Below are positions 8,983-25,269 of a stretch of DNA of 33,462 bases, one piece after another. The stretch covers positions 1 to 33,462 of the IMG/VR virus record IMGVR_UViG_3300031857_000752; one strand, written 5' to 3'. This DNA comes from a virus. Position numbers and translations under genes: made by a program. Each line of letters begins with the position of its first letter. The stretch's first letter is position 1. Under the pieces are notes generated by a model. It made no database searches. It was not told where the DNA came from and saw nothing but the letters and a program-made list of their open reading frames with translations.

Positions 8983-9250
8983 CGAGTGAGGCGATCGAGT
9001 GAGGACTCCCTAGTGTATATCTGTCTCCATATCGTTTATCGATATATATATACCCCCCCCTATGAATCCTCACTCGCTCGGTTTTGGAGAGAGAAGGTGC
9101 TGAAATGTAGGGCTTATTCGGAAATATCGAGTGAGGATTCTCGAGTCCTCACTCGACCCCACTTGCCCACGGTTAGGGTGTGAATGGGTCATTTTGCAAC
9201 CCTAGACTAGCCGAGTGAGGATCGAGTGGGGATGGTTGAATCCTCACTCG
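8983..9250. promoter_or_regulatory. Control region with CGAGTGAG repeats and GANTC sites
   Basis: The 490 bp between the divergent genes at 8880 and 9372 contain no convincing gene. Eight copies of CGAGTGAG (one with a mismatch) occur: forward at 8983, 8996, 9128, 9212 and 9223, and reversed ending at 9076, 9155 and 9250. In five copies the motif continues as CGAGTGAGGANTC, ending in a GANTC palindrome (9004, 9064, 9136, 9143 and 9238). Between the first pair and the third copy lies an AT-rich stretch (about 9010-9052) followed by eight C. The structure suits a multi-site operator, an iteron-type replication origin, or a methylation-responsive promoter region. Which of these is not decided by the sequence. 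Confidence 0.75.
9128..9155. repeat. Perfect 10-bp inverted repeat around two GANTC sites
   Basis: CGAGTGAGGA at 9128-9137 and its exact complement at 9146-9155 flank an 8-bp spacer that contains CTCGAG. The pair places two GANTC sites (GATTC at 9136, GAGTC at 9143) back to back. It is the most symmetrical part of the control region and a likely dimer-of-dimers binding site. Confidence 0.8.
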
Positions 9251-9295
9251 ATTTGCCTGTCCCGGTTGAATGTATGGAAAAGTGAATGAGGGGGA

Positions 9296-9326
9296 TTGAC
9301 GGGGCCGGATATGTGCCGGCATATAC
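9296..9326 (+). promoter_or_regulatory. Possible rightward promoter
   Basis: TTGACG at 9296-9301 is followed 18 bp later by CATATA (9320-9325), a recognisable sigma70-like pair about 45 bp upstream of the first rightward ATG. The short inverted repeat ATATG-N6-CATAT overlaps the -10 and could be an operator. Support is only sequence similarity and position. Confidence 0.42.
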
Positions 9327-9335
9327 GCGATGTCA

Positions 9336-9350
9336 GCCCCGATGCGGGGC
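9336..9350 (+). promoter_or_regulatory. Leader hairpin 1 (GCCCCG-ATG-CGGGGC)
   Basis: A 6-bp stem with a 3-nt loop is followed directly by GCC and lies 21 nt upstream of ATG 9372. It is the first of three similar leader hairpins in this operon. Confidence 0.6.
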
Positions 9351-9371
9351 GCCTATGAACGGATTAGACCC

Positions 9372-9560
9372 ATGCGCTTTGCAGATATTGCCCTTGCCTC
9401 CGCCTTCGCCCTTGCGGCTCTTTTCATGGTCGCATGCGGCGCCCTGATCATCTGGGAAGGCCTGCACGCCGACTCGGCCGCCCTGGGCGTCATGACGATG
9501 CTTTTTGCGATCATCCCCGCCACGCTCGCCGCTTGTGTCGCAAAGGAGTCGGCAAAATGA
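9372..9560 (+). CDS. Small membrane protein, unknown function
   Basis: The 62-residue protein from ATG 9372 (MRFADIALASAFALAALFMV) has two hydrophobic segments at about residues 5-26 and 35-54 separated by a short turn containing EGLHADSAA. I prefer this start to the GTG/ATG options further upstream because they would cross the leader hairpin. Its stop overlaps the next start (ATGA at 9557). It is the first gene of the rightward operon after the control region. No family is recognised. Confidence 0.65.
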   Translation: MRFADIALASAFALAALFMVACGALIIWEGLHADSAALGVMTMLFAIIPATLAACVAKESAK

Positions 9561-9748
9561 TCCGCTACGATCTCCTGAACGCCGATTGCGCATACCGTCG
9601 CCGCTATCTGGGCACGTTCGCCACTATCGCCGACGCCCTGCAGGCTATCCCGTTCCCGATCATTCAGTCCGACTATGACGCTGATCACGATGCGGCCGAC
9701 GCATTCGCCGCTAACGGATCGCTCTATGTTGTGGAGAGGGCCGCCTAA
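9557..9748 (+). CDS. Small soluble protein of 63 residues, unknown function
   Basis: It reads MIRYDLLNADCAYRRRYLGT, then FATIADALQAIPFPIIQSDY, and ends SLYVVERAA. It starts inside the previous stop (ATGA). The pattern suggests a small alpha/beta fold, with a strand, a helix (TIADALQAI) and a last strand (GSLYVVE). About 95 bp of non-coding sequence with a leader hairpin follows. No family is recognised and no catalytic motif is visible. Confidence 0.65.
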   Translation: MIRYDLLNADCAYRRRYLGTFATIADALQAIPFPIIQSDYDADHDAADAFAANGSLYVVERAA

Positions 9749-9812
9749 GCCGACGCTCAACTGGGCGGGTGCTACGGCGCCCGTCCTATTGAACGCCTGT
9801 CGCGTTCACAAT

Positions 9813-9825
9813 GCCCGATCCGGGC
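9813..9825 (+). promoter_or_regulatory. Leader hairpin 2 (GCCCG-ATC-CGGGC)
   Basis: A 5-bp stem with a 3-nt loop is followed by GCC and lies 19 nt upstream of ATG 9845, just before a purine-rich ribosome-binding site (TTGAGGGA). Confidence 0.62.
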
Positions 9826-9844
9826 GCCTTTTGAGGGACATACG

Positions 9845-10390
9845 ATGACTGACACCGACGCGCGCGAGCTCGCATTGTTCGCCGAAAATGACGGCGATCT
9901 ATACCGCTCGCGCATCCTTCCGATCGTTGCCAACCTTGCTCGCAAGGTCGCGGGCGGCACCTATGACGCCGATAAGGCGTTGACGCTTTGGCGCTACGCT
10001 GCAGATGACGCCGCGCAACGCTACACCCGCGAGCACGGCACGCCGGGCCCTAACGGTTCCTTTGGCTGCTTTGATACCGCCACGCGCCAGGCCGTCGCCG
10101 TGATGCTGGCGGAGGGTTACGCCGAGCACATGGCGGAGGAAGCGCAAACCCTCCGACTCCGCAAACAATGGACCGTGGCCACTATCAAGGCCGCGCACGA
10201 GTCGGCGGGCGGCGTGTTTTTCGACCGCTCGCACATGAAAGCGAACGGCGAGACCCTCAAAAGCTTCACAGTCGAGATCCGGCACGGTTACGCATACTTG
10301 ATCCGCACGCGCGACCACGCCGCGTGGTTGTTCGACCCGGCAACGGGGCGACTCGATAAGTCCAACCACGGGAACGCCCATCACTCCTAA
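9845..10390 (+). CDS. Accessory protein of a type common on phages and plasmids, unknown function
   Basis: This 181-residue protein has two parts. Residues about 8-65 (LALFAENDGDLYRSRILPIV, then ANLARKVAGGTYDADKALTL and WRYAADDAAQRY) match a pattern I associate with small plasmid- and phage-borne proteins that carry the D-L-Y and G-x-Y-D-x-x-K-A-x-x-L-W motifs. The C-terminal part, FFDRSHMKANGETLKSFTVE, is typical of another short phage domain with F-F-x-R-x-x-M-K-x-x-G-x-T-L. The biochemical role is unknown. A ribosome-binding site and leader hairpin 2 precede the ATG. Confidence 0.72.
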   Translation: MTDTDARELALFAENDGDLYRSRILPIVANLARKVAGGTYDADKALTLWRYAADDAAQRYTREHGTPGPNGSFGCFDTATRQAVAVMLAEGYAEHMAEEAQTLRLRKQWTVATIKAAHESAGGVFFDRSHMKANGETLKSFTVEIRHGYAYLIRTRDHAAWLFDPATGRLDKSNHGNAHHS

Positions 10391-10402
10391 CCGCCCCGCT
10401 TT

Positions 10403-10427
10403 CCCGCCCTGTCACTGGGGCGGGTTT
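10403..10427 (+). terminator. Terminator-like hairpin
   Basis: CCCGCCC (10403-10409) pairs with GGGCGGG (10418-10424) around an 8-nt loop and is followed by TTT, 13 bp after the stop at 10390. The U-tract is short, so it may be partial or act as an mRNA 3' end. Confidence 0.5.
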
Positions 10428-10450
10428 GCCGGACGGTTAGAGTCCGCATT

Positions 10451-10463
10451 GCCCAGACTGGGC
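10451..10463 (+). promoter_or_regulatory. Leader hairpin 3 (GCCCA-GAC-TGGGC)
   Basis: A 5-bp stem with a 3-nt loop is followed by GCC and then by GAAAGGAA, 17 nt before ATG 10481. The stem differs from hairpin 2 by a paired change (G-C to A-T), so pairing is kept while the sequence changes. Confidence 0.65.
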
Positions 10464-10480: not shown

Positions 10481-11197
10481 ATGAAAACGGATCCCCTGAA
10501 ACTATACCGCGACGCCGAATCCGGCGCCGGACAACCCGGCGCCCGCAAGCGGTGGCGCCTTGCCTGTCACGCTCTCGCCCCCCTTGTGACCGACTCCGCC
10601 GCCCTGCAGGCCTATGCGACGGCCGGCGAGACCCATAAGCGGGCCGACTGGCGAACGGCCGCTAAAGCTATGGCAAACGCCCTGCAGGGCATCGCACCCG
10701 CACCGGCGCCGGTGAAGCCGGAGCGCGCGCCTATGTCCCTTTGCGAATTCCTGTCACGGGCCGGCGGCCTTCGCGATACGGGCGGAGATCTGCAGGCAAT
10801 GGGCGCGCACCTATGGCACCGCCGGGCCGCATTCCGGCGCCGCCTGGTAACCGACTCCGGCCTTGCGCTCGACTATGCGGCCGATCTCGCTTGTGAGCGC
10901 GGCTATGTGTCCGGCTATGCCTCGCCGTCACTGGGCATGGGCGCTGATCGGGATGACGAATTGCACCGGCTGGGAGTCGGCGCCCTGCTAGAGGCGATTG
11001 AGCGCGAGCTTGCTGGATCGCCCTGCTATCCGGCCGAGTCGGACTGGGCGCCCTATGTCGAGCCGGAACCGGAGGATCATGAAGCCTTGTGGGCGGAAAC
11101 GTGGCCGGAGGATGCGCCGATCGTCGAGCCGGTCCGAACAATCCGATTCGTTGACGCCATGACCGGCGCTGAGTCGCATGTGCTGGAGGTGCGGTGA
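10481..11197 (+). CDS. Unknown protein of 238 residues
   Basis: It starts MKTDPLKLYRDAESGAGQPG with a strong ribosome-binding site (AAAGGAAC). The N-terminal third is helical and basic (ARKRWRLACHALAPL), then there is a Pro/Ala linker (APAPAPVKPERAP). The C-terminal half is helical and ends in an acidic segment (EPEPEDHEALWAETWPED) followed by a short strand region (TIRFVDAMTGAESHVLEV). I see no catalytic motif. CTGCAG occurs repeatedly as Leu-Gln codons. It heads a run of overlapping genes. Confidence 0.68.
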   Translation: MKTDPLKLYRDAESGAGQPGARKRWRLACHALAPLVTDSAALQAYATAGETHKRADWRTAAKAMANALQGIAPAPAPVKPERAPMSLCEFLSRAGGLRDTGGDLQAMGAHLWHRRAAFRRRLVTDSGLALDYAADLACERGYVSGYASPSLGMGADRDDELHRLGVGALLEAIERELAGSPCYPAESDWAPYVEPEPEDHEALWAETWPEDAPIVEPVRTIRFVDAMTGAESHVLEVR

Positions 11198-11831: not shown

Positions 11832-11995
11832 TGATCAGCGACACACTGTCAGACGCGGCCGCCACGGTTCGCGACTATCTCCGCATTGAACCGGAAACCT
11901 ATGCGGACCGGCAAGCGCGGGGCCTGATAGACCAGGCCCTGCAGGCAATGGATCAGGCGCGAGTCTTTCTCGACACGCCTCCGGCCATGCCATGA
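11831..11995 (+). CDS. Small helical protein of 54 residues
   Basis: This frame starts at the ATG in TAATG at 11831 and reads MISDTLSDAAATVRDYLRIE, then RGLIDQALQAMDQARVFLDT, ending PAMP. It stops with an ATGA overlap onto the XRE-like gene. Two amphipathic helices are predicted by eye. It fills an otherwise empty gap between two coupled genes, which supports it despite its size. Function unknown. Confidence 0.6.
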   Translation: MISDTLSDAAATVRDYLRIEPETYADRQARGLIDQALQAMDQARVFLDTPPAMP

Positions 11996-12210
11996 TCACC
12001 ACGCCCGCCGATCTAAAGGCCGCCCGCCTCGCGCTAGGCTGGAGTCTCCGCGACATGGCCCGCGCCTTGCGCCTTGCCCAGGTTGAGACAAAGGGCCCGG
12101 ACCGGGTGCGGGATATGGAGTCCGGCGCCCGTGAAATATCCGGGCCGGTCTCGGTCGCGGTTGAGGCATTCCTAACCGGGTTCCGGCCTGCAGGTTGGCG
12201 CGATGAATAG
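11992..12210 (+). CDS. XRE-type helix-turn-helix protein
   Basis: This 72-residue protein consists almost wholly of a helix-turn-helix: LKAARLALGWSLRDMARALR (helices 1-2), then a loop, VRDMESGAREISGPVSVAVE (recognition and support helices) and FLTGFRPAGW. The L-G-W-S-x-x-x-x-A pattern and M-E-x-G are typical of Cro/CI-like DNA-binding domains. It is likely a small phage regulator, perhaps of its own operon. Its ATG overlaps the preceding stop and its end overlaps the next gene by 8 bp. Confidence 0.75.
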   Translation: MITTPADLKAARLALGWSLRDMARALRLAQVETKGPDRVRDMESGAREISGPVSVAVEAFLTGFRPAGWRDE

Positions 12211-12500: not shown

Positions 12501-14876
12501 TCAGGACGCGCCGGGAGAGGGCCGCTCGACAGAGACGCGATACGACTTGATCTTGTGCCCGCCCGCCGGCGGCTGATCCTCTCGCCGGTCCAGATCCCCG
12601 CCATCGACCAGGCCGTCCAGCATGTCGCGAAGCTCCTTTGCCTTGAGCCGGTTCTTGAGCGACTGGGATATTTCCCGGAACGTCATCCAGCCACGCCCCT
12701 GCAGTGCACGAATGACACGCTGCGCCTCGCCCTGGTGCTGCGTCTCGGCCATGTAATCGGCGGCCATCTCGACCGTCTGTTCCGCGGACCATCGTGCAAG
12801 GGCGATGCCCCAGTCCATATCCTCCAGCGTGACCTTTGCCGCGGCACCGTCGCGACCGATCGCCCGGATCGTGGCCATGCGCTGCGCCATCTCCGCCGAG
12901 CGGGTGAAAAACACCGCGTCCTGCTCGCGCCGCTCACACTCCTGCCCGAACGCCATGTAGGACTGATGGGCATACTTGTCGTCCCAAGGCACGATGATCG
13001 AGGGGCCGTCCGACGCCGCATTGTGTGACGTCGCGCGGCTGAGCGGAGGCAGGGACGCAACGATCGCGACCAGCCCGTCCGTGATCGCATCCGGCACGGC
13101 GGTCTTGTCCAGCAGCGGCTCGCGCTCCTCGACACGGGCATGGGTCGAGAAAATCAGGAAGCGATTGAGAAAGCCGTTGAAAACGTCCGCGCCGTCAAGG
13201 TTGGCGAAGAACTCCTCGTGCGTGGACACCCCGTAGATCGAGAGCGCCGGCGAGAAGATCGGCTCGCCTACCCTGCCCGCCCATTCCGGCGTGGCCATCG
13301 TGTCAAAGCTCGAACCCCAGGCCGAGCGCAGGGTGCGGGTGATCGCCTTCTCGTGCGGCGATGCCTTGCGCCCATTGATGCGGCCGAGATAGCCGCCGAA
13401 CTCGTCAATGCAGGTGAGCGTGAGCGGCTGGCGATTGAGGCGCGAGACCAGTGCGGACATGGACATGAACTCGCCGGGCCCGACATGGGCGCCGAGGGTT
13501 GCCGCACGCAGCACGCGGTCGATCGCCTTGAGCGGGTGATCCTTTGCCGCGCCAGACGGTGCCAGAAACAGCCCATACAGGTGCGTTCCGGTGCGTGTAG
13601 GGCCTGAAAACGTGCGCCCTGCAGCCGTTCCGACGATCTCCAGCGCCGCCATGAGCGCGCCGGCACGCTGAGGCTTGCGCGCCGTATCGCAGATCCAGTC
13701 CGTGATCGAGCCGACAAGGCCTGGTGCGCGGGTGAGCGCGTCGGGAAGCTCGCCGCCGAACACCTGCAGGCTATCAGAAACCGGCGCGGTGACAGGCTGC
13801 GGTCGATCGGGTGCGAAGATTACCGGCTCTTTTCTCCGCAACGGCTCAGGCAGGTCGTCGTCAACCACCGTCGGCATATCCAGCGCGATCACCACGCTGT
13901 CATCCTTCAGGCCCAGTCGCTCACGCAGCCAGTCCGTCGCCGCCGCTTGCTCGCAGTCCCGCGCGGCCATCACCAGGTCGATTGCCGAATAGGTCTCGTT
14001 CGTCCCAAAATCCTTGATGCCGTCGCGCTGGATCGAGAGGTTGCGCTTGCGGTCCGGGATCGGCTGCCCGGTGCTGGACGCCCGCCATGTCGCGACCGCC
14101 TCAAACCCACCGCGTGCAGGCCTGCATCCGTACAGGTCGAGGGCGGGCACCCACTTGTCGAGATTCGCCAACGCCGCACTTTTTGTCTCAGACCAGATGT
14201 CGTCGGGGTCAAGCTCACCGCAACGGGGCGGGCGTGGCGCACGATCCTTGCCGACGGACACACGCTCCCGCGACCACCCACACACCTCCAGCGCCTCCTC
14301 CAGCGCCGTCATGTCGTCATCTGTCAGCACAGGCAGCTCGTCCGCGCGCACGGGCCCGGCCAGCCAGACGTAGGGCTTGCCGGTTTCCGGGTGGATCGAC
14401 GGCGGCACGACGGTCTGGCGGGTATCGAACCCGGTCAGGCGATCGAGCAGGCGTCCGTCGGGCCCGTCATACGAGGCGGTCTTCAGCGTCTTGGGGGCGA
14501 GGTAAAACCTGCTCTCGCCCTTTGCGCCACGCTTGACCATCGGGCTTGCCGGTGCCGAACGCAGCAGGGTGTCCAGCACGTCGGCATCCTGGGCGTCAAA
14601 ATCCAGCACGACGACGTGCAGATCCTTGCGCGCGACCGTGCCCATGAGCAGGCCGATGTTCGCGCCCGGCGCCTTGGCCCACAGCCCCAACTCGAACGCC
14701 GACGGCGTCGTATCACGGAACCGTTGCCACTTGGACATGCCCTGCCAGCCGCCCGAGCGATACTCGCCAGGGCATTTCCCGCGACCGGCGTGTGATGACC
14801 AGTCGGCTGGTATCAATGGCAGGACCGAGAAACCGAGCGCCTGCAGGTCGGAGGCAGATGCGGAGAAGGGGCTCAT
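12501..14876 (-). CDS. PrimPol-type primase/polymerase with P-loop ATPase domain (replication protein)
   Basis: This 791-residue protein is the likely replication initiator/primase-helicase. Residues about 1-200 form a bifunctional primase/polymerase domain: GLLMGTVARKDLHVVVLDFD with the D-x-D metal motif (91-94), and VVPPSIHPETGKPYVWLAG (156-174). A middle region (IKDFGTNETYSAIDLVMAAR, then DWLRERLGL) resembles the segment linking primase and helicase in such proteins. The ATPase part has LFLAPSGAAKDHP (about 437-448), a divergent P-loop, and LTCIDEFGG (about 487-495), a Walker B-like segment, as in DUF3987-type proteins. It is the last gene of the early operon. The P-loop has Ala where Gly is usual. 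Confidence 0.85.
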   Translation of the reverse strand: MSPFSASASDLQALGFSVLPLIPADWSSHAGRGKCPGEYRSGGWQGMSKWQRFRDTTPSAFELGLWAKAPGANIGLLMGTVARKDLHVVVLDFDAQDADVLDTLLRSAPASPMVKRGAKGESRFYLAPKTLKTASYDGPDGRLLDRLTGFDTRQTVVPPSIHPETGKPYVWLAGPVRADELPVLTDDDMTALEEALEVCGWSRERVSVGKDRAPRPPRCGELDPDDIWSETKSAALANLDKWVPALDLYGCRPARGGFEAVATWRASSTGQPIPDRKRNLSIQRDGIKDFGTNETYSAIDLVMAARDCEQAAATDWLRERLGLKDDSVVIALDMPTVVDDDLPEPLRRKEPVIFAPDRPQPVTAPVSDSLQVFGGELPDALTRAPGLVGSITDWICDTARKPQRAGALMAALEIVGTAAGRTFSGPTRTGTHLYGLFLAPSGAAKDHPLKAIDRVLRAATLGAHVGPGEFMSMSALVSRLNRQPLTLTCIDEFGGYLGRINGRKASPHEKAITRTLRSAWGSSFDTMATPEWAGRVGEPIFSPALSIYGVSTHEEFFANLDGADVFNGFLNRFLIFSTHARVEEREPLLDKTAVPDAITDGLVAIVASLPPLSRATSHNAASDGPSIIVPWDDKYAHQSYMAFGQECERREQDAVFFTRSAEMAQRMATIRAIGRDGAAAKVTLEDMDWGIALARWSAEQTVEMAADYMAETQHQGEAQRVIRALQGRGWMTFREISQSLKNRLKAKELRDMLDGLVDGGDLDRREDQPPAGGHKIKSYRVSVERPSPGAS

Positions 14877-23505: not shown

Positions 23506-23699
23506 TGGGGGACGCCGCAGACGACGCTTACGACGCCGCTATGTGGGAGGATGACGAACCTGAGATTTGCGGCACTTGCCCAGATCACGTCCCCGCTATT
23601 ATCCCCCCAGAAGGATGGGTTTGCCCTGAGTGCGACGCAGACTGGTCGATGGCTGATGATGACGAAGCTATCCGAAAAGCCACAGGAGAAGCATCATGA
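23505..23699 (+). CDS. Small acidic zinc-ribbon protein
   Basis: The 64-residue protein from ATG 23505 reads MGDAADDAYDAAMWEDDEPE, then ICGTCPDHVPAIIPPEGWVC and PECDADWSMADDDEAIRKAT, ending GEAS. Two C-x-x-C pairs (CGTC, CPEC) form a likely zinc knuckle. It is strongly acidic elsewhere. Its C-terminal codons and the next start lie in a repeated DNA segment shared with the junction at 25010-25033. Confidence 0.65.
   Translation: MGDAADDAYDAAMWEDDEPEICGTCPDHVPAIIPPEGWVCPECDADWSMADDDEAIRKATGEAS
23676..23699 (+). repeat. 24-bp gene-junction repeat, first copy
   Basis: Twenty-four bases, from AAAGCCACAGG to GCATCATGA, are identical to 25010-25033. The segment encodes the last residues KATGEAS of one gene, contains AGGAGAAG as ribosome-binding site, and ends in the overlapping stop/start of the next gene. 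Confidence 0.85.
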
Positions 23700-23893
23700 A
23701 GCCGACGGTTACGTTGTCGCCGACGCCGCTCCCCACCGTTCGAGTTTACGACCGGACCCGCGATGAGTTTGCAATGGCCGCATTGACGGGGCTTTTGGCG
23801 GCAAACGTGGATTATGACAGGCAACCCGAGCAAGCTGCGAAGCGCGCCTACACCCTCGCAGACGCCATGCTTAAGCAGAGAGAAGCATCATGA
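23696..23893 (+). CDS. Small protein of 65 residues, unknown function
   Basis: It reads MKPTVTLSPTPLPTVRVYDR, then EFAMAALTGLLAANVDYDRQ, and ends KQREAS. The N-terminal part is Pro/Thr-rich and the rest is two helices. It begins in an ATGA overlap inside a 24-bp repeat and ends in the GAAGCATCATGA junction that leads into the next gene. No family is recognised. Confidence 0.62.
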   Translation: MKPTVTLSPTPLPTVRVYDRTRDEFAMAALTGLLAANVDYDRQPEQAAKRAYTLADAMLKQREAS

Positions 23894-23923
23894 CCCCCGA
23901 CGAACTCCCCGCTGATATGGAGG
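23883..23923 (+). repeat. 41-bp gene-junction repeat, first copy
   Basis: Forty-one bases beginning AAGCATCATGACCCCCGA are identical to 25229-25269. They cover the end of one gene and the codons for the N-terminal MTPDELPADME of the next, which both following genes share. Confidence 0.88.
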
Positions 23924-24552
23924 CCCGCACCCCTGCACCAGAGGGGGAGGCTTGGCGGCACGTCTCGCAAGAGGAAATGGCGCAGGCTGCAAAGTTCGCA
24001 TCCAACAACCTCGCATCCCCTGTCGTTCCTGCACCAGAGGGGGTGTTTGTTAGCGAGACTTGCGAAGGTGAAGTCTGCTGGTGCGGAAAGCCTGCGGTCC
24101 GAAAGGTCGGGGAGGAGTTTGCGTATGACGAGCCGAACCCTAACCGCCACAACCTCACTCGGTATATCTGCGCCCACCACTTCGCTGAACTCATGGGGCC
24201 AGCGGGGGCGCGGTCTGTCGGCATTGCCCCTGTCGTTCCGGTAGGGGTGTCGGAAACGGATGTTTTGTCTGTCCTCACCGCCGAACGGGATGAACTAAAA
24301 GCGGCGCTGGAATGGGCCGACCGCATGGCCAAATCCTCCCTAGACGCCCTTTCCGCAACCCTTAACCAGCCTGTCGTTCCGGTAGGGATGAGCAGGGAGG
24401 AGATTGCGCGGGCCGTTCACCGAGGGCGGTTCCCCGAGGATCGTAAGCCCACGCCCTTTGAGGCTGAAGACGCATCGGGCACGACCTACTGTTTTCGCAT
24501 TGCCGACGCCATCATCGCAGCCCTTCGCCCTACCGATACAGGGAGGGAGTGA
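23890..24552 (+). CDS. Modular accessory protein with repeated PVVP linkers
   Basis: This 220-residue protein begins MTPDELPADMEARTPAPEGE, a start shared with the gene at 25236. Segments are separated by repeated linkers: PVVPAPEGV, PVVPVGVS and PVVPVGMS, with near-identical DNA (CCTGTCGTTCC at 24019, 24229 and 24370). Between them lie a Cys-rich piece (CEGEVCWCGKPA...CAHHF), a helical piece (DELKAALEWADRMAK) and a C-terminal piece (EIARAVHRGRFPEDRKPTPF). It looks like a protein built from joined modules. Function unknown. Confidence 0.65.
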   Translation: MTPDELPADMEARTPAPEGEAWRHVSQEEMAQAAKFASNNLASPVVPAPEGVFVSETCEGEVCWCGKPAVRKVGEEFAYDEPNPNRHNLTRYICAHHFAELMGPAGARSVGIAPVVPVGVSETDVLSVLTAERDELKAALEWADRMAKSSLDALSATLNQPVVPVGMSREEIARAVHRGRFPEDRKPTPFEAEDASGTTYCFRIADAIIAALRPTDTGRE

Positions 24553-24746
24553 TGAGCCTCTACGACGACGAAAACGAACACTTGCTCGACGCTATCCAGC
24601 AAGACGCCGAAGACGCAGCAATCCACGCGTGGGGGCCGCTAGGCGCTCCGACGCACAGGTCATGCCCGCACCCAGAAGGGTCAGAAGAAGCCGAGGCATG
24701 GTGGATAGCTTTTCACAGAGGATACGCACGGGAGCACGGCAAATGA
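24552..24746 (+). CDS. Small acidic protein of 64 residues
   Basis: It is read from ATG 24552 (TGATG overlap with the previous gene): MSLYDDENEHLLDAIQQDAE, then DAAIHAWGPLGAPTHRSC, and EAWWIAFHRGYAREHGK. An acidic N-terminus is followed by a helix with aromatic residues. The region EAEAWWIAFHRGYAREHG resembles the end of several short phage proteins, but I know no function. Its stop overlaps the next ATG. Confidence 0.62.
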   Translation: MSLYDDENEHLLDAIQQDAEDAAIHAWGPLGAPTHRSCPHPEGSEEAEAWWIAFHRGYAREHGK

Positions 24747-25033
24747 CCACCCCTGACATAGCCGGTCTGTGCGAGAGGCTGCGGGCTGCGCTGGAAGGCG
24801 TCACGCCGGGGCCTTGGGAAGCCACGTTAGGCGCTTCCGGCATGACCGCCGTTGAGGCTGACAACGGCACCATTGTCGCCAGCTACGTTTCGGAGGCCGA
24901 CGCCCGCCTTATCGCATCCGCTCCTGATCTTTTGGAGGCGCTGATCGAGGTCGTAGCTATTGCCGACCGCAAGACGGATGCCTTTGACCGCGCCCGCGCC
25001 GCTATCGCCAAAGCCACAGGAGAAGCATCATGA
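24743..25033 (+). CDS. Ead/Ea22-like phage protein
   Basis: The 96-residue protein from ATG 24743 reads MTTPDIAGLCERLRAALEGV, TPGPWEATLGASG, then DARLIASAPDLLEALIEVVA and ends KATGEAS. The PGPW and A-x-L-I-A-x-A-P-D-L-L-E-A-L motifs are typical of phage Ead/Ea22-type early-region proteins, which have no established role. Its 3' end is the second copy of the 24-bp junction repeat and therefore has the same C-terminal KATGEAS as the unrelated zinc-ribbon protein. Confidence 0.75.
   Translation: MTTPDIAGLCERLRAALEGVTPGPWEATLGASGMTAVEADNGTIVASYVSEADARLIASAPDLLEALIEVVAIADRKTDAFDRARAAIAKATGEAS
25010..25033 (+). repeat. 24-bp gene-junction repeat, second copy
   Basis: Identical to 23676-23699. It again spans the end of one gene, a ribosome-binding site and the next start codon. 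Confidence 0.85.
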
Positions 25034-25239
25034 CCTCGCGCACCGAATACACCACGTCGGGTGCCAGCATGACGTTGACGCCGGGCCAGACCTTTTTCAT
25101 GGACGGAAAGCGCCATGTGGTCCGCGAGGTTTTCGCGCACACGTTCACGACCGACCCCGACACTCGCAACCATCAGACGCGGCGGGTTGATCGCGCGAAA
25201 GCCCGCGCCGCCGCCAAGTTCAAGAGGAAAGCATCATGA
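25030..25239 (+). CDS. Small basic protein of 69 residues, unknown function
   Basis: It reads MTSRTEYTTSGASMTLTPGQ, then TFFMDGKRHVVREVFAHTFT, and ends RAAAKFKRKAS. The first half looks like a small beta domain and the C-terminal 20 residues are strongly basic, which would suit nucleic-acid contact. It is bounded on both sides by the repeated stop/start junctions. No family is recognised. Confidence 0.62.
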   Translation: MTSRTEYTTSGASMTLTPGQTFFMDGKRHVVREVFAHTFTTDPDTRNHQTRRVDRAKARAAAKFKRKAS

Positions 25240-25269
25240 CCCCCGACGAACTCCCCGCTGATATGGAGG
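25229..25269 (+). repeat. 41-bp gene-junction repeat, second copy
   Basis: Identical to 23883-23923, after which the two genes diverge completely. Confidence 0.88.

Follow-up and report, generated by a model that had tools for sequence, protein, structure and literature searches.

Accessory genes of phages turn over fast, and how a newcomer gene comes to be expressed promptly is an open question. The locus studied here lies in a virus record of 33,462 bases, hereafter the window, in which a first-pass annotation had noticed three similar small hairpins shortly before three gene starts. It had taken them for a conserved RNA structure, with paired changes in the stems and a loop size and position that stay fixed. 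Is this structure real, and what could it do for the genes behind it?

The window encodes a terminase, primase, helicase, Cas4-type exonuclease, Sak4-like annealing protein, integrase, and tail and internal virion proteins, a gene content that points to a probably temperate, podovirus-like phage. Its primase matched a single cellular relative, in a Brevundimonas MAG (68% identity), which makes a host among the Caulobacterales likely; the phage probably infects Brevundimonas-like bacteria.

All three hairpins stand before genes 9372, 9845 and 10481 (named by their first base) with exactly the sequences and positions described (Table 1). Each is perfect and trailed by GCC, and their ends lie 21, 19 and 17 nt from the respective ATG. 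We subjected the three 80-nt leaders to 5000 dinucleotide shuffles, searching for stems of at least 5 bp with a 3-nt loop and GCC: on average 0.013 leaders qualified, and all three did so in 0 of 5000. Over the whole window the enrichment is modest, with 5 such hairpins on the + strand against 1.7 in shuffles (largest value 6): it is the placement before three non-overlapping gene starts, rather than the number in the window, that stands out. The one other exact GCCC-N5-GGGCGCC of the window, at 13478, falls within the primase gene on the opposite strand and is not an element. The overlapping genes of the operon (9557, 11197, 11406, 11831, 11992 and 12203) lack the hairpin, as had been stated. 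An ATG at 9330, placed 5' of the first hairpin and in frame with gene 9372, is not conserved among relatives, which by comparison makes 9372 the better start.

Table 1. Features of the hairpin-bearing region, in window coordinates.
Feature	Positions	Strand	Remarks
Slot 1 promoter-like element, TTGACG-N17-GCATAT	9296..9324	+	putative; TTGAC at constant 40 nt
Palindrome ATATG-TGCCGG-CATAT, overlapping -10 region	9309..9324	.	possible operator; kept in most relatives
Slot 1 leader hairpin B, GCCCCG-ATG-CGGGGC, then GCC	9336..9350	+	6 bp, loop ATG
Accessory gene, small hydrophobic (membrane-like) protein	9372..9560	+	62 aa; no family match
Accessory gene	9557..9748	+	63 aa; overlaps gene 9372; without hairpin
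Slot 2 terminator-like hairpin T	9763..9786	+	10 bp in window; covaries among 10 phages
Slot 2 hairpin A, GAACGC-CTGTC-GCGTTC	9791..9807	+	stem invariant
Slot 2 leader hairpin B, GCCCG-ATC-CGGGC, then GCC	9813..9825	+	5 bp, loop ATC
Accessory gene, unknown function	9845..10390	+	181 aa
Slot 3 intercistronic stem: outer TAACCG...CGGTTA, inner CCCGCCC...GGGCGGG, then TTTG	10388..10439	+	outer stem holds stop TAA
Slot 3 inverted repeat A, CGGAC...GTCCG	10430..10446	+	excludes outer stem; partly kept in L007/L023
Slot 3 leader hairpin B, GCCCA-GAC-TGGGC, then GCC	10451..10463	+	5 bp, loop GAC
Accessory gene, unknown function	10481..11197	+	238 aa

Protein and DNA searches gathered ten related phage contigs that carry the element, at three places (slots 1 to 3) in the same order as in the window. 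The conserved leader element before accessory genes is real and strand-specific: these 11 contigs, window included, hold 29 non-identical elements whose hairpins come in 12 distinct versions, and every element occupies the sense strand just 5' of a Shine-Dalgarno (SD) site and ATG. Because the hairpin was itself part of the pattern behind this collection, we searched slots 2 and 3 again by their upstream flank, with no requirement for the 3' arm (the slot-2 flank included just the first GCC of the hairpin). A fully paired hairpin followed in 10 of 10 true slot-2 and 9 of 9 true slot-3 matches.

The wider set refines the first-pass description. The outer four pairs, GCCC/GGGC, are identical in 29 of 29 elements, while pair 5 is C-G in 13, A-T in 12 and G-C in 4; the paired changes originally proposed, which among the window copies affect the innermost pair(s) only, are thus genuine at pair 5 but weakly borne out for the stem as a whole. 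The arms are spaced by 5 or 7 nt with pairing retained, and the loops comprise ATG, ACG, AAG, ATC, GAC, GTC, CAC, AAC, ATGAC and GCGAC. A fixed 3-nt loop can no longer be upheld: L007, L008, L023 and L040 show 5-nt loops or changed lengths. Relative to the other copies of their slot, those of L010, L023 and L040 in slot 1 and of L007, L008, L023 and L040 in slot 2 are of different length. The position is only roughly constant, the hairpin ending mostly 14-22 nt before ATG but 32-34 nt before it in three copies. The GCC tail is present in 27 of 29 elements, the exceptions being slot 2 of L007 and L023, with GCGGAG. Separately, in slot 1 of L005, L008 and L009 an additional small inverted repeat (GGGC..GCCC) separates hairpin B from the SD and puts the start codon at 32-34 nt.

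The element appears confined to one subclade, since the primase relatives L014, L015 and L024 and the Brevundimonas prophage L062 lack it. The phage and plasmid databases searched gave no match, and no Rfam family reached its gathering score in the window region or in L005, L040 and L076. Scanning viral contigs with a generic pattern (hairpin, GGA and ATG) added one new relative, L040; the other matches were mostly chance-like and within coding sequence, with L038 and L034 set apart from these. In L038, a prophage-like contig of 54% GC, GCCCGGATTGGGCGCCGAAGAAAGGAGCG precedes an ATG near 27-64 on the minus strand; the reading frame leaves the locus, and this could be an unrelated similar leader.

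The hairpin belongs to a larger module, which the first-pass annotation had not noticed and whose other components depend on the slot. In slot 1, TTGAC is found exactly 40 nt 5' of the hairpin in 10 of 10 copies, with a -10-like hexamer 17 nt further; in L040 this promoter-like element reads TTGACA-N17-TTTATA. A simple sigma-70 scan returned no site at slot 1. If the element is a promoter, its fixed distance places the hairpin near the transcript's 5' end, and we infer that hairpin B of slot 1 probably starts about 5 nt into the mRNA. The palindrome at the -10 region is a likely candidate for a repressor operator, and because of this overlap the lysogen probably keeps the promoter-like element repressed. 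Upstream of slot 1, a second palindrome resembling it is present in L007 and L008. L063/L076, a prophage less closely related to the window, comes from a genome of the Brevundimonas MAG's genus; in it, sequence-unrelated potential hairpins occupy the promoter leader, at a similar place after TTGACA in L076, and one gene junction.

Slots 2 and 3 share another order. After the stop codon comes hairpin T, whose short U run mostly reads TTTC or TTTG, and then A and B, the Shine-Dalgarno site and ATG. The stop codon is 59-66 nt from hairpin B in 19 of 19 copies. In both slots the 5' arm of A shares bases with the strand that closes T's outer stem, and the two pairings would therefore be mutually exclusive. 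By eye, no promoter with the slot-1 geometry was seen at either slot. An integron attC site, suggested by the core-like CTAACCG...CGGTTAG of slot 3, was rejected since slot 2 lacks it.

In the slot-2 alignment of 10 sequences, 180 of 180 cells are paired and 6 pairs change on both sides, giving a covariation score reached by no shuffle. Most of this signal comes from hairpin T: two-sided changes affect 5 of its 7 aligned pairs, at 100% pairing across 10 phages, and in the window its place is taken by a 10-bp stem that is quite different. The stem of hairpin A (GAACGC/GCGTTC) is constant among the 10 sequences, which leaves its pairing putative; from hairpin B comes a single covarying pair, of three types. 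The slot-3 alignment, outer stem included, has almost no variation and no covariation; the pairing of this mostly invariant outer stem is thus a prediction. Covariation in a wider set, as had been called for, is therefore found for hairpin B at pair 5 and in its length changes, on which the case for the small hairpin mainly rests, but not at the four constant pairs of the five.

Compared with shuffled sequences, the window junctions fold better (z of -3.0 for slot 2 and -2.4 for slot 3), and the slot-1 leader folds no better (z of -0.58). In ensemble calculations hairpin B is the main predicted local structure in most contexts, with a mean pair probability of 0.84; it is not dominant in 3 of 29 ensembles (slot 1 of L008 and L012, slot 2 of the window). 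Predicted SD accessibility is moderate, with a mean of 0.51, so insulation of this site is not evident from folding.

The genes around the element change from phage to phage. The first genes 3' of it fall into 16 groups without mutual detectable similarity (7, 5 and 4 for slots 1, 2 and 3); in slot 1 of L007 and L012 our script placed the starts too early, and by eye the proteins read from the next ATG also differ. On the 5' side, the genes sort into 8 groups at slot 2 and 5 at slot 3, their starts being automatic guesses. Within slots 2 and 3 the median leader identity is 78-84%, against about 50% over the next 200 nt, a level equal to that of unrelated DNA aligned with gaps. With genes in many groups on either side, the junction is, as judged from these alignments, an island of conservation amid changing genes: flanking genes are mostly unrelated between phages and the junction is retained. 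Relatives of two of these genes, the slot-2 gene of L005 (judged visually) and gene 10481 of slot 3, are present without element B in the prophage L063/L076. In L076 (7840-8751, G101) the two relatives are adjacent, with no leader between them.

We propose, with a probability of roughly 0.45, that the element is a portable 5'-leader RNA hairpin which protects the mRNA end and/or insulates the SD of exchangeable cassettes. At slot 1, transcripts from a regulated promoter would begin with the hairpin as their 5' end. Inside the operon, at slots 2 and 3, it would head a new translation unit, preceded by a stop codon, a hairpin of terminator-like or processing type and the second inverted repeat. 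It would shield the 5' end, native or processed, against 5'-end-dependent decay, and would prevent GC-rich sequence further upstream from pairing with the neighbouring Shine-Dalgarno site; one accessory gene downstream could then be swapped for an unrelated one with expression unchanged. Action at the RNA level would be the simplest account, because the element keeps one orientation, adjoins the SD, and retains its pairing through length change with a variable loop. In favour of the proposal as a whole are the fixed distance of TTGAC in slot 1, the recovery of the hairpin by flank alone, the unrelated genes around conserved leaders, and the potential hairpin at a similar place in L076.

That 5' hairpins are able to stabilise mRNAs is established in E. 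coli (PMC3997798). As in the 5'-terminal stabilising stem-loops of ompA and papA (PMC3997798), a short stable stem-loop here lies near a putative 5' end and is followed by the SD; unlike in those, the stem sequence is constrained, and up to three copies occur per phage, also inside the operon. It is slot 1 that a protecting and insulating hairpin suits best. At the two slots within the operon, protection needs processing in the T/A region, or else the hairpin has a role without a free 5' end. A similar arrangement is seen at the early intercistronic RNase III sites of phage T7, irregular long hairpins between early genes that are followed by a leader hairpin and SD. The stems predicted here are likewise irregular, with internal loops, and precede a leader hairpin and SD; unlike those of T7 they also resemble weak terminators, belong to a different host lineage, and their processing is putative. 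Against protection, a purely structural role would not require the outer four pairs to be invariant in sequence, and hairpin A of slot 2 is invariant as well. The moderate SD accessibility, the 3 contexts in which hairpin B is not dominant and the slot-1 leader that folds no better than its shuffles weigh on the same side. What protection and insulation chiefly fail to explain is the constancy of the outer stem and GCC, which leaves room for a sequence-specific binder.

Such a binder could be a phage or host RNA-binding protein that reads GCCC-N-GGGC-GCC beside the SD and switches the accessory genes jointly, as a translational operator. The near-invariance of the outer stem and trailing GCC, the place next to the Shine-Dalgarno site and the presence of the element at several units of one phage all suit this reading, yet we hold it to be unlikely: loop sequence and size vary freely, unlike in typical hairpin operators, GCC is missing in slot 2 of L007 and L023, and no candidate binding protein was identified. 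That a repressor dimer, perhaps of a phage protein such as the HTH protein at 11992-12210, recognises GCCC-N5-GGGC in duplex DNA close to where each unit begins seems distinctly improbable. Conserved outer half-sites around a variable centre are typical of operators, and another palindrome does overlap the slot-1 promoter-like element, but the half-sites are spaced by 5 or 7 bp across phages in slots 1 and 2 rather than constantly; this length variation of 2 nt with pairing kept favours RNA over a fixed-spacing DNA site. Moreover, the single orientation, the nearly universal GCC tail and the position tied to the SD count against a DNA operator, and a recognisable promoter-like element is restricted to slot 1. 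Antitermination appears the most remote of the alternatives. Here the hairpin would load a complex, as lambda nut boxB does, or alter RNA polymerase, as HK022 put does, to pass the terminator-like hairpins downstream. Lambda nut boxB is a small GC-rich phage hairpin with a conserved GNRA-like pentaloop and boxA upstream. The element is also small and GC-rich, starts with GCCC and ends with GGGC, slot 1 stands just after a promoter-like element, and slots 2 and 3 have tandem hairpins A and B. Unlike boxB, its loops vary in sequence and length and are not GNRA-like, and the alignments contain no common boxA-like stretch at a fixed distance. HK022 put RNAs, found after early promoters, are of about 70 nt with two long stem-loops (PMC9378689), whereas slot 1 has a single hairpin of 13-15 nt and the element is repeated before start codons. 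Elements that follow each terminator-like hairpin, right before start codons, would also make a processive signal superfluous.

A different kind of alternative concerns DNA exchange: the intercistronic stretch may be kept mainly as short homology for cassette exchange by phage recombination proteins, with the hairpin co-inherited. The phage does encode a Sak4-like annealing protein and a Cas4-type exonuclease, and around slots 2 and 3 mostly unrelated genes flank a junction whose stop-to-hairpin length is fixed at 59-66 nt. Short boundary sequences have been proposed to mediate mosaicism in other phages (discussed in PMC3029335), and a conserved short junction with non-homologous genes on both sides is found here too; it differs from them in its promoter-like or terminator-like elements and hairpins with covarying pairs. 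Homology needs identity, not pairing, yet hairpin T of slot 2 has paired substitutions and hairpin B keeps its pairing through length changes; nor would it explain the same hairpin in three different flanks, a promoter leader among them. As the main reason for conservation we consider it a little less probable even than the translational operator. Exchange through the junction is compatible with protection and insulation, or with a sequence-specific binder, and would explain the turnover of genes.

Among described systems, the nearest kind is that of the SAS and ESAS of cluster K mycobacteriophages, start-associated repeats at a subset of non-structural genes with unproven function (PMC3203893, PMC12699233). 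The SAS is a 13-bp sequence, GGGATAGGAGCCC, which lies near the start codon and includes the ribosome-binding site; about half of SAS have an upstream inverted repeat, and the ESAS repeats are imperfect and 17 bp long (PMC3203893, PMC12699233). Our element is likewise restricted to the starts of some non-structural genes. Unlike the SAS, its hairpin lies upstream of the SD, and unlike the ESAS, its stem is perfect with 5-6 bp. Because the SAS sequence is absent, the element is, by sequence, not a member of this family: GGGATAGGAGCCC has no match with up to 2 mismatches, and of the 8 matches that have 3 mismatches, where chance predicts 11, not one falls at these genes.

Returning to the protecting and insulating hairpin, we can tentatively extend it, although the extension is more doubtful than the hairpin's role itself: the whole stretch from stop codon to SD, with its end hairpin, switchable stem A and hairpin B, may act as an RNA 'socket' that closes one gene, opens the next and supplies homology for swapping. 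Were this so, accessory genes could be exchanged as cassettes without loss of expression. A constant structured leader between mostly unrelated genes is a concrete and testable answer to how a newcomer is expressed and, if confirmed, would help to find accessory genes where phages of the clade lack annotation.

Other repeats were seen in the window. Several + strand genes at 23667-25269 have near-identical start regions, made of ACAGGAGAAGCATCATGA and a 47-nt repeat reaching into the coding sequence; they constitute a second repeated leader in this phage, unrelated to hairpin B. In the intergenic stretch before the operon (8984-9250), GAGTGAGG(A) or the complementary sequence occurs at least 7 times, arranged as direct and inverted repeats and overlapped at 9122-9256 by a weak Rfam match to mir-576. 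These repeats are absent from L008, L010, L023 and L040; they occur also in L005, L006, L009 and partly in L007, and are possible candidates for operator or replication repeats.
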